DNA of 64,000 nucleotides from the NCBI GenBank assembly GCA_025128025.1, contig JAHLYR010000016.1, positions 62,001 to 126,000 on the forward strand. Reading direction: 5' to 3'. The notes under the pieces are model-generated. The model saw only the letters and a program-made list of their open reading frames with translations, had not been told where the DNA came from and searched no databases. This document shows, piece after piece, positions 1 through 4,694 of this stretch. This DNA is from Synechococcus sp. CS-1330. Its GTDB lineage: Bacteria; Cyanobacteriota; Cyanobacteriia; PCC-6307; Cyanobiaceae. The position numbers were made by a program, and so were the translations under genes. The number at the start of each line of letters is the position of its first letter. Position 1 is the stretch's first letter.

Positions 1-977
1 CGCCACAGCAGCGGGCTGGGGCCCAGGGCCCATGGACCCCAGAAGGCCACCGCCTGGGGTCTGGTGTTGCTGCCATCGCCCAGCAGCTGCAGCGCCCAGC
101 GCTGGGGCCGCCAGGGCCGCAGCTGGCGGCTCGCCACCACTGCAGTCAGGTTGTGGGCCAGGGTTTGGGCGCAGCGCACAGCCCAGACACCGGAGGCGGG
201 CCGGGGCCTGCTGGCGATCACGCCGCAGTCGCCGCTGGCGAACAGCCTCGGCTGCTCCCTTACCTGCAGGCTGGCCTCAGTGAGCAGGCGCCCCTGGCTG
301 TTGCAGGCCAGGCCTGAGGCGGCGAGCCAGCGGGGGCCGCGGCTGCCTGTGCAGGCCAGGTCGGCGGTGGCGTCATCCGGGCAGTTGGCCTCGATGGCAA
401 TGCCGGCGCTCTCCAGTAGCTGCTCCCCTAATTGGTTGGCTGCCTTTGAGCCCAGATTCAGCTGGGTGCCGCGTAACTGCAGCTTGGGCTGCTGGCCCCT
501 CGCCCGCAGGGCCAGGGCCACCTCTACGGCTGCGGCGCCGCCACCGCGGATGCGGACGCTGCCTGCTTTGGGCTGGCTGCACCAGTGCAAGAAGGGCTCC
601 AGGGGCTTTACCGCCATGGCCGCATGAGTTGCGGCGCCGGTTTCTGCGCCCACATCGAGGCTGAGCCAGTCCCAGCGCAGGTTGGGCCGCCCCGCCAGTG
701 CCAGCTCCCGGCTCACGGGATCAATCGCTGTGATCTCTGCCTGCACAAAGGTCACCCCCGCCAGCAGGCAAAGGCGGCGCAGGTCGATGGCGCAGGCGGC
801 TGGCTGATAAAGACCGGCGACCAGCCCCGGCACCATGCCCGAATAGAGGGTGGTGCTGTGGCGGCTCACCAGGGTGATCCAGGCGGCTGGCCGCTGCCGG
901 CCCATGGCCCACATGCGCAGCACCAGGGCGTGGCTGTGGCCGCCACCGGCGAGCACCAGCCTTGCTTCAGCGGCCAT
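1..977 (-). CDS. FAD/NAD(P)-dependent oxidoreductase, SelD N-terminal-domain type (partial, runs off window)
   Basis: About 325 N-terminal residues are visible; the 3' end lies outside the window. The protein opens with a Rossmann signature GGGHSH at residues 11-16 and later has a second nucleotide-binding glycine cluster (IRGGGAAAVEVAL) and a closing FASGDCGVI segment, as in NDH-II-like pyridine nucleotide-disulfide oxidoreductases. The GGGHSH variant is typical of the flavoprotein domain fused in front of selenide, water dikinase in cyanobacteria. Whether the SelD kinase domain follows cannot be seen. The ATG overlaps the galE stop by 11 bases, so it is probably translated from the galE transcript. 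A stand-alone oxidoreductase is the alternative. Confidence 0.7.
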   Translation of the reverse strand, partial: MAAEARLVLAGGGHSHALVLRMWAMGRQRPAAWITLVSRHSTTLYSGMVPGLVAGLYQPAACAIDLRRLCLLAGVTFVQAEITAIDPVSRELALAGRPNLRWDWLSLDVGAETGAATHAAMAVKPLEPFLHWCSQPKAGSVRIRGGGAAAVEVALALRARGQQPKLQLRGTQLNLGSKAANQLGEQLLESAGIAIEANCPDDATADLACTGSRGPRWLAASGLACNSQGRLLTEASLQVREQPRLFASGDCGVIASRPRPASGVWAVRCAQTLAHNLTAVVASRQLRPWRPQRWALQLLGDGSNTRPQAVAFWGPWALGPSPLLW

Positions 978-2010
978 AACCCTCGGGATTGGCCTGCTGC
1001 CAGGTCCAGCCGTCGCGGCACATCTCTTCCAGGCAGCGGCGGGTGCGCCAGCCGAGTCGTTTAGCTGCCAGGCGCGGATCAGCCACGGTGCTGGCCGCGT
1101 CTCCGTCTCGCCTTTCCACAATGGTGTGGGGAACTGAACGGCCACTGGCAACCTCGAAGGCCCTCACCACCTCCAGCACCGAGTGGCCCTGGCCGCTGCC
1201 CAGGTTGAGGCTGAGCAGCTGGGGGGGCTCGGCCAGCAGCACGTCCAAGGCGGCCTGGTGCCCCTCAGCCAGGTCCATCACATGAATGTAGTCGCGGATG
1301 CCGCTGCCATCGGGGGTGGGCCAGTCGCCGCCGAATACCTGCAGGCAGTCGCGACGCCCCACCGCTACCTGGCTCACAAAGGGGAACAGGTTGTTGGGTA
1401 TGCCCCTGGGGTCCTCGCCGATGCGGCCACTGGGGTGGGCTCCCACCGGATTGAAGTAGCGCAGCCGGGCGATGCGCCAGCCCGCCTCGCTGGCCGCCAG
1501 ATCGGCCAGCAGCTGCTCCACCGCAGCTTTGCTGTGGCCGTAGGGGTTGATCGGCTGGATGGCGGCAGATTCACTGATCGGTGTTTGTTCGGGTAGGCCG
1601 TAAACCGTGCAGCTGCTGCTGAAGACCAGGCTGCGGCAGCCATGGGCTTGCATTGATTCCAGCAGCTGGCGAGAGCCACAGAGGTTCACGTCCCAATAAC
1701 GCAGGGGCTCGCGCACCGATTCGCCCACCGCCTTGAGACCGGCGAAGTGGACCACGGCTGTGATTGGCCGGCCGGCCGGGGCGGCCTCGAAGGCCCGCTC
1801 CAGATCTCCAGCGGAGCGAATATCGCCCTCCACCACCTGCAGCCGGTCGGCTGCGGAGGGGCCGGCAAGTTCCAGCACGCGCTTCAGGCTCTCGGGTGAG
1901 CTGTTGTCGAAGTTGTCGAGCACCACCAAGTTGTGGCCTGCTTCCAACAGCATCAGACAGCTGTGGCTGCCGATGAAGCCAGCACCTCCGGTGATTAGCA
2001 GCTCAGCCAT
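967..2010 (-). CDS. galE: UDP-glucose 4-epimerase
   Basis: A 347-residue extended short-chain dehydrogenase that interconverts UDP-glucose and UDP-galactose using bound NAD. It shows the NAD-binding TGGAGFIG at residues 7-14, the SSSCTVYG segment with the catalytic serine near 133, and the YGHSK motif with Tyr157 and Lys161. Length matches bacterial GalE. It supplies galactose-containing precursors for surface polysaccharide or lipopolysaccharide. The downstream oxidoreductase gene overlaps its 3' end; upstream is the divergent nucleotide-sugar remnant region, so this is a small sugar-nucleotide locus. Start is the first ATG, next to the intergenic region. Confidence 0.95.
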
Positions 2011-2062
2011 GGAGGTAATTCATGCATAAGGAATAGTCTCTCGTCCTGGCTAGGTGAGTTTC

Positions 2063-2170
2063 ATGGGAATGCCCACCATTCGCTCCATCTGCTGCATAGG
2101 AGCGGGTTACGTAGGTGGCCCAACGATGGCGGTGATTGCAGATCGCTGCCCGATGACGGCCGGGTGGTGA
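2063..2170 (+). pseudogene. ugd: 5' remnant of UDP-glucose 6-dehydrogenase
   Basis: A 35-codon reading frame whose first 30 residues match the conserved N-terminus of the cyanobacterial/eukaryotic type of UDP-glucose dehydrogenase: [16 protein letters not shown], the Rossmann GxGYVG loop, then [11 protein letters not shown] good Shine-Dalgarno sequence (AGGTGAG, 2052-2058) precedes two in-frame ATGs at 2063 and 2069. Homology stops at about 2153, where the DNA continues into an internal segment of uxs in another frame, and the frame closes at TGA 2168-2170. The rest of the roughly 460-residue enzyme is gone, so this is a deletion scar. The ribosome-binding site and start look intact, so a short peptide could still be made. 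Confidence 0.8.
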
Positions 2171-2361
2171 GCAACTTCATCGTGCAGGCCCTCAAAGGCG
2201 AGCCGCTCACGCTTTATGGCGATGGCAGCCAAACCCGCAGCTTTTGCTACGTGGATGATCTGGTGGAGGGGCTGATCCGGCTGATGAACGGGGCCCACAC
2301 CGGCCCGATCAACATCGGCAACCCCGGCGAATTAACGATCCGTCAGCTTTTGGCCCCATGA
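2146..2361 (+). pseudogene. uxs: Internal remnant of UDP-glucuronate decarboxylase (UDP-xylose synthase)
   Basis: Reads [11 protein letters not shown], then [17 protein letters not shown], then a NIGNPGE motif, the hallmark middle-to-late part of UDP-glucuronate decarboxylase. Only about 70 of roughly 310 residues remain: the NAD-binding domain and catalytic YxxxK are missing, and the C-terminal helix region is cut after TIRQL, where the next gene begins. Two GTG codons (2164, 2167) are possible starts; the second overlaps the ugd-remnant stop as GTGA, and the remnant's own stop overlaps the next ATG as ATGA. It cannot be an active enzyme. It probably arose by deletions between adjacent ugd, uxs and epimerase genes. 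Confidence 0.85.
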
Positions 2362-3377
2362 GTCGCCCCGTGCTGCTGACCGGTGCGGCCGGCTTTATCG
2401 GTGCGGCGGTGTGTGAGCGGCTTTTGGCTCGGGGTGAACGGGTGGTGGGGATCGACAACCTCAACAGCTATTACGACCCCGCCTTGAAGCAGGACCGGCT
2501 GAGCCGGATCGAGGCCTCTGCCCCCAAGGCGGCCTGGAAGTTCCATCGCCTTGAGCTGGAGGACGGATCTGCCATGGCGGCCCTCTTCGCCCGCGAACGA
2601 CCCCGACTGGTAATTCACTTGGCGGCCCAGGCCGGGGTGCGTTATTCCCTGGAAAATCCTGGGGCTTACTTGCAGAGCAACTTGGTGGGTTTTGGCGCAA
2701 TCCTCGAAGGCTGCCGCCATCACGGCGTTGAGCACCTTGTCTATGCCTCCAGCAGCTCGGTTTATGGCGGCAACACCAACCTGCCGTTCACGGAACATCA
2801 GTCGGTGAACCATCCGGTGAGCCTGTACGCGGCCACAAAGAAGGCCAATGAATTGATGGCCCACACCTACAGCCACCTTTATGGGCTACCGGCTACGGGG
2901 CTGCGCTTTTTCACCGTGTACGGCCCCTGGGGCCGGCCCGATATGGCGCCGATGCTGTTTGCCAAGGCGATCCTGGCGGGGGAGCCGATTCGGGTGTTTA
3001 ACCACGGCCGCATGCGCCGCGATTTCACCTACATCGACGACATCGTGACCGGGGTGATCGCCTGTGCCGACAAGCCGGCCAGCGCCGACCCCAATTTTGA
3101 CCCTGCGGCTCCAGACCCTGCCACCAGCTGGGCGCCGCACCGCTTGTTCAATATCGGCAACAGCGAGCCGGTGGAGCTGCTGTATTTCATCGATCTGCTT
3201 GAGCGGGCTTTAGGTCGGCAGGCGATCCGCGATCTGCAGCCGATGCAGCCCGGCGATGTGGAGGCCACCGCCGCCAATACGAGCTTGCTCGAGGCCTGGG
3301 TGGGCTTCCGCCCCTCCACCTCGATCGAGGTGGGGGTTGAACGCTTCGCCCGTTGGTATCAAGCCAGCTACGCCTGA
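2358..3377 (+). CDS. NAD-dependent epimerase, UDP-glucuronate 4-epimerase type
   Basis: A 339-residue extended SDR enzyme with TGAAGFIG at residues 8-15, SSSSVYG near 131-137 and the catalytic pair Tyr157 and Lys161 (YAATK). The [12 protein letters not shown] segment is characteristic of the CapI/LpsL group, which converts UDP-glucuronate to UDP-galacturonate. The likely role is providing an acidic sugar for envelope polysaccharide. Its natural partner ugd survives only as a fragment just upstream, so UDP-glucuronate must come from a copy elsewhere if the enzyme is functional. No Shine-Dalgarno precedes the ATG; it overlaps the uxs-remnant stop, suggesting translational coupling. Confidence 0.85.
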
Positions 3378-3416: not shown

Positions 3417-4694
3417 TTGGCATCGCTGCAGAGCCTGCGTGGCATGGCCGATCTGCTGCCAGAGCAGATTCGCTTGTGGCAGCACCTGGAAGCCACGGCC
3501 CGCGAGCATTTCCGCCGCAGTGCCATCACTGAGATCCGCACCCCCCTGCTGGAGGTCACCGAGCTGTTTGCCCGTGGCATCGGCGAGGCCACCGACGTGG
3601 TGGGTAAGGAGATGTACACCTTTTTCGACCGTGGCGAGCGCAGCTGCACCCTGCGGCCGGAGGGCACGGCGTCGGTAGTGCGGGCGGCAATCCAGCACGG
3701 CCTGCTGAGCCAGGGCCCCCAGCGCCTCTGGTATGGCGGGCCGATGTTCCGCTACGAGCGCCCCCAGGCGGGCCGGCTGCGTCAGTTCCACCAGATCGGG
3801 CTGGAGCTGCTCGGTTTTGCCGATGCCTGCAGTGACGTGGAGGCTATTGCCGTCGCCTGGGATCTGCTGGCCCAGCTGGGGGTGGGCGGGCTGGAGCTGC
3901 AGCTCAATTCCCTCGGCAGCAGCGAAGACCGGGCCCGCTACCGGGAGCAGCTGGTGGCCTGGCTGGAGCAGCGGCGCGACCAGCTCGATGCCGATTCCCA
4001 GGCCCGCATTGCCAGCAACCCCCTGCGGGTGCTTGATAGCAAGAACCCCGATACCCAGGCCCTGCTGGCGGAGGCCCCCAGCCTGGCGTCCGCTCTCAGC
4101 GATGGCAGCCAGGCCCGCTTTGCGGTGGTGCAGCAGGCCCTCACGGCCCTGGGTATTCCCTTTGTGCTCAACTCCCGGCTGGTACGGGGCCTCGATTACT
4201 ACAGCCACACCGCCTTTGAGATCACCAGCAGCCAGCTGGGGGCGCAGGCCACCGTGTGCGGTGGTGGCCGCTACGACGGCCTGGTGCAGCAGCTGGGCGG
4301 GCCGGCCACGCCGGCGATCGGCTGGGCCCTGGGGATGGAGCGGTTGGTGTTGCTGCTCAGCCAGAGCGAAGCTTCGGCCGCCGCCGCCCCCTCCCTCGAT
4401 CTCTATGTGGTCAGCCGCGGCGAGGCCGCAGCCGCACTGGCGCTGGCCCTTGCGCGGCGCTGCCGCCAGGCCGGGTTAGCGGTGGAGAGGGATGCCAGTG
4501 GCGCGGCCTTCGGCAAGCAGTTCAAGCGGGCCGACCGCTCCGGGGCCCGTTGGGCGGCGGTGATCGGCGAGCAGGAGGCGCTAGACGGGTTGGTGGGGCT
4601 CAAGGATCTGCGCGCTGGCGCTGAGCAGGCTGATCAGCGGCTCACGCCTGAAGCCCTGCTTGAGGTCCTCGCAGCGGGCCTGCCGAGGCCATGA
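3417..4694 (+). CDS. hisS: Histidyl-tRNA synthetase
   Basis: A 425-residue class II aminoacyl-tRNA synthetase that charges tRNA-His. Visible are the N-terminal [10 protein letters not shown] typical of HisRS, motif 2 around [10 protein letters not shown] (111-120), the histidine-binding [11 protein letters not shown] (255-265) and GGGRYDGL (282-289), followed by an anticodon-binding domain. The start is taken as TTG because it gives the conserved [10 protein letters not shown] opening; the next ATG would remove it. It follows the epimerase by 39 bases on the same strand. Not to be confused with HisZ, which lacks the anticodon domain and these intact signature loops. Confidence 0.95.

Follow-up and report, generated by a model that had tools for sequence, protein, structure and literature searches.

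Ahead of an intact sugar-nucleotide epimerase gene in Synechococcus sp. CS-1330 lie two short reading frames, one opening as ugd (UDP-glucose dehydrogenase) and the other closing as uxs (UDP-glucuronate decarboxylase), joined to each other and to the epimerase gene by start-stop overlaps. Are these pieces what gene loss has left behind, or do they form a translated leader that the third gene needs? The window analysed here, a stretch of 64,000 nucleotides, belongs to contig C33 of an assembly of 2.51 Mb in 72 contigs that is 99.91% complete; the features of the site are given in Table 1. The reading that we prefer, with a probability of about 0.9, is that of a gene-loss scar: two short-repeat deletions in an ancestral ugd-uxs-epimerase operon, with an intact second pair elsewhere in the genome.

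Table 1. Features of the galE-hisS site in the window
Feature	Position	Strand	Basis
galE (UDP-glucose 4-epimerase), divergent neighbour	967-2010	-	ORF; TIGR01179 above cut-off
galE-ugd intergenic region, contains block GGAATAGTCTCTC (2030-2042)	2011-2062	+	Alignment of relatives
ugd stub: 30 native codons (2063-2152), 5 out-of-frame uxs-derived codons, stop TGA 2168-2170	2063-2170	+	
Deletion junction 1, 8-bp GCTGCCCG	2145-2152	+	Alignment to G004
uxs remnant, native uxs frame, native C-terminal codons and stop; possible start GTG 2164 or 2167	2153-2361	+	
Deletion junction 2, 10-bp repeat TCCGCCAGCT, window reads TCCGTCAGCT	2339-2348	+	Alignment to G004
ATGA, uxs stop overlapping epimerase start; ancestral by alignment	2358-2361	+	
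Intact NAD-dependent sugar-nucleotide epimerase	2358-3377	+	ORF; PF01370; dN/dS
hisS, right neighbour in relatives too	3417-4694	+	ORF

The ugd stub reads as a 35-codon ORF from ATG 2063, or as 38 codons when opened at GTG 2054, and matches PF03721 over residues 8-29 (E 1.1e-5, below the model's cut-off). The uxs-frame ORF has 65 codons from GTG 2164 (2164-2361) and joins a middle portion of uxs to its extreme end (PF01370, E 3.1e-10). Over 2145-2348 the DNA is 92% identical to that of G004 and G005, two of the relatives described below.

Ancestral organization of the locus

The scar DNA was searched in 60 genomes, that of the window among them, and 20 stretches were retrieved. Twelve of these (L044-L055), picked because the search matched both ugd and uxs there, span the galE-hisS site, and these are meant wherever the 12 relatives' loci are mentioned; 11 come from the same genus and one (G020) from the same family. 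The other eight (L056-L063) are contig-end pieces, different loci, or stretches from family members with a different order. One genome per species was compared, and the scar is seen in one assembly. Gene order was also compared at 11 loci (L064-L071, L073, L100, L115) drawn from the 80 best among the epimerase's 587 relatives, a set that may lack the record of the window itself or those very near to it and whose best named matches are picocyanobacteria, for example uncultured Cyanobium and Synechococcus.

All 12 loci have galE at the left and hisS at the right, with galE, ugd, uxs and hisS in that order. The preliminary description had proposed looking for an intact ugd-uxs-epimerase order in sister genomes, and it is present between galE and hisS in 11 of the 12, the epimerase gene lying between uxs and hisS. 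The spacing varies: galE is 2.3 kb away from ugd in G001, and gaps of 0.7-0.9 kb flank uxs in G013. Aphanothece saxicola (L069), among the 11 named records compared, has the same order; the reverse pair order, uxs-ugd, occurs in G024, G033, L065, L070 and L071, as on contig C12 of the window's genome. In near relatives, the scar-DNA search found the two query halves apart from each other, with about 2 kb separating the places matched. As judged from these alignments, the ancestral site was galE <- -> ugd-uxs-epimerase-hisS.

Block GGAATAGTCTCTC of the galE-ugd intergenic region is identical in five of the 12 aligned relatives (G004, G005, G011, G012, G014), changed in the others and recognisable in several. 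This region, or the block within it, is perhaps the promoter region of the operon, retained in the window; a sigma-70 and terminator scan of 1900-2500 gave no match to the sigma-70 consensus and no terminator, so that we speak of a candidate promoter.

Deletion junctions

Aligned with G004, G005, G012, G007 and G011, the window follows ugd up to GCTGCCCG and uxs from there onward. The first 30 codons of ugd are kept from ATG 2063 and run into the middle of uxs, just as had been described. In G004 the word GCTGCCCG occurs at ugd nt 83-90 and at uxs nt 549-556; the window keeps one copy, and 1,873 bp are absent relative to G004, as computed from the repeat positions. The word is complete in both ugd and uxs of G004, G005, G012 and G007, and is one base off in uxs of G011.

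The second cut had been placed at the ATG of the epimerase gene; it actually lies inside uxs and in frame, and the last codons and the stop are native. In uxs of G004, TCCGCCAGCT occurs at nt 743 and again, exactly 180 bp further on and in the same frame, at nt 923; it is 180 bp that are missing from the window's uxs. The right-hand copy is also found in G011 and is absent from G005, G007 and G012; the window's TCCGTCAGCT differs from TCCGCCAGCT of G004 by one C to T change, private to the window. The total loss is 2,053 bp, equal to the shift in the distance between the ugd and epimerase starts (2,348 bp in G004, 295 bp in the window).

At the two junctions in the window the blastn blocks overlap by 8 and 10 bases. 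For a junction placed at random, the chance of falling in 8 or more consecutive identical bases is 4.4e-4 in the ugd x uxs comparison, and that of falling in 9 or more is 2.3e-4 within uxs. In G004, ugd and uxs have 69 words of 8 or more bases in common, and 26 such words are shared within uxs, so that sites for short-repeat events are plentiful. A short-repeat scar is recognised by an intact ancestral form in relatives and a junction on one retained repeat copy, and both are found here; the micro-homology deletions proposed for this operon are borne out by direct comparison with relatives, and there are two of them.

With at most one mismatch allowed, the scar word was found in a single one of the 16 genus genomes, namely that of the window. 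Among the matches listed, no alignment spans junction 1 in the other 59 genomes searched. When three mismatches were allowed in a 19-base pattern of the junction, 196 of 400 family genomes matched, and this pattern was set aside as too loose.

A complete pair on another contig

A single full-length copy each of ugd (465 aa) and uxs (314 aa) was found in the window's genome; the two overlap by 4 bases and form an intact uxs-ugd pair at C12:85,434-87,769. A search for a complete ugd elsewhere in the genome had been suggested, and its presence beside uxs rules out the idea that the ugd-uxs pathway had been removed. Within the genus, 12 of 16 genomes have full-length ugd and uxs, and in the 11 besides the window's these lie at the galE-hisS site. 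The remaining four genomes are 82-88% complete; the ugd match stops at a contig end in G002, G006 and G008, and G009 has just a distant ugd relative and a 55-residue piece of uxs.

The neighbours of the C12 pair look like polysaccharide-export and chain-length proteins. In trees, C12 uxs clusters with that of G012 and the scar (support 0.89), and G004, G005, G011 and G012 form a clade that does not include C12 ugd. Given these differing placements, the pair may be mosaic, with a uxs of native type and a ugd of foreign type. The deletion and the gain of the second copy may have come in either order.

Two further ugd remnants lie on C12 (L041 16918-17652 and 17952-18055), about 9-10 kb behind the intact pair. 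The possibility that the deleted part of ugd had moved to C12 was rejected: the main piece (C12:96,937-97,647) resembles C12 ugd (88.6%) more closely than it does G004 ugd (82.9%). At L041 10626-15346, on the same contig, are several similar, partly broken adjoining ORFs, for example NTDRWYYRVFQSAPDLIRALLPGS, which resemble a family of Rpn-type nucleases.

Translation signals and the surviving epimerase

Both start-stop overlaps named in the preliminary description exist: the ugd stop overlaps a uxs-frame GTG at 2167 (GTGA, 2167-2170), and the uxs stop overlaps the epimerase ATG. That this chain was kept through the deletions is another matter. ATGA is found at the uxs/epimerase boundary of G004, G012 and G001, and TTGA, which counts as an overlap provided that the epimerase starts at that TTG, in G003 and G015; five of the 12 relatives thus have one or the other, six differ (G005, G007, G010, G013, G014, G020) and one (G011) is without the epimerase. 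The alignment indicates that the overlap at the epimerase is inherited and not a product of the scar. At the ugd/uxs boundary the arrangement is TGA, three nucleotides and ATG in nine of the 12 relatives, with a 4-nt gap in G001, a spaced boundary in G013 and an unclear alignment in G020, and a GTGA link occurs in none of the 12 aligned. The GTGA link is therefore new, and it can be fortuitous: among junctions simulated from the G004 genes (160,950 in all), 4.4% (about 1 in 23) produced an NTGA overlap, and in one third the fusion was in frame. A preserved chain is not supported by these comparisons.

The AGGTGAG ahead of the ugd start had been called a strong ribosome site. Of the 13 sequences aligned, the window is the only one to have this word; G004 and G005 read ATGTGAG instead and G012 ATGTGAA, and G011 has no such word. 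It is not conserved, and as an inherited ribosome site it is ruled out. By eye, no Shine-Dalgarno-like word is seen before GTG 2167/2164, and the GTG sits in the 3' arm of a predicted hairpin of -33.0 kcal/mol (5 of 200 shuffles equally stable). No Shine-Dalgarno word is seen by eye directly before the epimerase ATG of the window or of G004, and the predicted folding of the epimerase start is not unusual (z -0.07). In G007 and G014 the epimerase gene lies about 110 nt behind uxs, and by eye its ATG has no such word immediately ahead of it; tight coupling is therefore needless there, and the gene seems to do without it in some relatives. The epimerase gene is also spaced in G005 and G010, where GGAG is seen by eye before the ATG.

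The epimerase has the NAD-dependent epimerase family domain (PF01370, E 2e-57). No NCBIfam model reaches its cut-off among the matches listed (25 of 29 models), and the best solved relative, 5u4q, carries the label dTDP-glucose 4,6-dehydratase; judging from its operon context, the enzyme is probably a UDP-glucuronate 4-epimerase. The gene is found at E 1e-60 in 13 of 16 genus genomes, and in 10 of the 11 of good quality. Its dN/dS is 0.143 against G004 and 0.120 against G012, with 0.107 between those two, and its private changes (synonymous/non-synonymous) number 15/9 in the window, 15/8 in G004 and 16/7 in G012. These private changes are much like those of its counterparts in G004 and G012. 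The epimerase is still constrained and under purifying selection.

The epimerase of G005 (L045 4554-5690, compared with L044 and L050) is nearer in protein to that of G014 (dN 0.066) than to that of G004 (dN 0.099). Its galE and hisS are close to those of G004, and a spacer of about 120 bp precedes the gene. From these distances, the epimerase allele seems to have been exchanged between species.

Discussion

The course of events that we infer starts from an ancestor with galE <- -> ugd-uxs-epimerase-hisS at the site. Two deletions between short direct repeats, of 8 bp between ugd and uxs and of 10 bp within uxs, probably by replication slippage or strand annealing, removed 2,053 bp, so that ugd keeps 30 codons and uxs about 69. 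Such a loss would be tolerable because the genome has a complete uxs-ugd pair elsewhere, beside the polysaccharide-export-like genes. The epimerase gene has come through intact and lies 295 bp rather than 2,348 bp behind the ugd start and with the same intergenic region upstream, from which transcription may continue. Its translation would most likely begin at its own start, perhaps aided by ribosomes ending at the inherited ATGA.

The remnants bear changes of their own. Five bases of the uxs remnant are absent from C12, G004, G005 and G012, four of them synonymous and one changing F to L, and of two private changes in the ugd stub one is synonymous and the other is not. This pattern points to a recent deletion, and the scar is probably young; in this one genome, lasting coding constraint would fit it as well. 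That selection maintains the short ORFs as small proteins with a role of their own is scarcely credible. Their frames are open, and only one of the five scar-unique changes in the uxs remnant is non-synonymous, but that one strikes a Phe kept in 12 of 12 intact sequences compared, and the ORFs are pieces of enzymes present in a single genus genome.

The sequence before the epimerase gene also allows a reading in which translation initiates at the ugd ATG and terminates at 2170, resumes at GTG 2167/2164 and terminates at 2361, and resumes once more at the epimerase ATG; the remnants would then be a needed translated leader. Both overlaps are there for it, AGGTGAG precedes the ugd ATG in the window alone, and neither in the window nor in G004 is a Shine-Dalgarno word seen immediately ahead of the epimerase ATG. 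In a study of overlapping gene pairs in Haloferax and E. coli, strict translation coupling was found in 13 of 14 pairs tested (PMC6728339); a distance of about 20 nt nearly abolishes coupling, according to another (PMC10666635). What makes this reading unlikely is that the ATGA is ancestral, that a GTGA-type link arises so readily in the simulation, that the GTG lacks a Shine-Dalgarno-like word and lies in a stable predicted hairpin, and that the epimerase genes of G007 and G014 stand apart from uxs with no such word (those of G005 and G010 have GGAG). It is just as doubtful, from the sequence, that a relay from the ugd start contributes noticeably to epimerase translation. Less probable still is that the remnants have turned into a selected leader, the window-specific base making AGGTGAG and two reinitiations reaching the epimerase; no result points to selection for the relay. 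If the leader reading were true, operon decay would have made the first genes expression elements for the last.

It might also be asked whether the species has intact ugd-uxs here and the scar is an assembly or library artefact. The scar's confinement to one assembly would suit this, as would the 93% identity of C12 uxs to the remnant. Assembler overlaps are far longer than 8-10 bp, however, so that the junction repeats fall far below them; there are two separate junctions, the remnant is 7.4% different from C12 uxs and has its five private changes, and one full-length copy each of ugd and uxs was found in an assembly so nearly complete. We regard an artefact as very unlikely.

The gene-loss scar is ordinary gene decay of a known kind, and the preserved coupling claimed for it is mostly inheritance together with what chance allows. 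Deletions between short direct repeats (microhomology) are a known cause of bacterial gene loss. The present case is like them in having one 8- or 10-bp repeat copy at each junction and truncated gene pieces left behind, and does not differ in principle; here there are two in one operon, and another in G011. Translated leaders or upstream ORFs that control a downstream gene are likewise known. The ugd stub resembles these as a short upstream ORF in the same direction with a possible ribosome site, whereas it is a gene stub with a junction in no other of the 16 genus genomes. The ATGA of uxs and the epimerase, shared with G004, G012 and G001, recalls the -4 nt termination-reinitiation pairs treated in PMC6728339 and PMC10666635, but the upstream partner here is a remnant without its own start codon and coupling is putative. 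The literature search gave no title on this locus among the matches listed.

The reverse outcome is seen at the same site in G011, where the epimerase is absent in a genome search at E 1e-60. At 2904-2980 of its locus (L048, contig C32), a piece of the epimerase gene of roughly 50-70 bp is joined to the uxs tail, before hisS, and the junction is the 11-bp GCTTTTGGCCC, a word found in both the uxs tail and the epimerase gene of G004. With this loss at a short repeat, the operon of a related species has been shortened at its other end, and the operon has been pruned in different ways. The window provides a clean example of an operon pruned gene by gene through short-repeat deletions with the start of the surviving gene kept. 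It also carries a warning for annotation, since operon remnants may leave misleading small ORFs with tidy overlaps. On contig C6 of G004 (L056 7290-7490), a frameshifted 5' stub of ugd lies directly behind two genes that are similar to gmd and wcaG.
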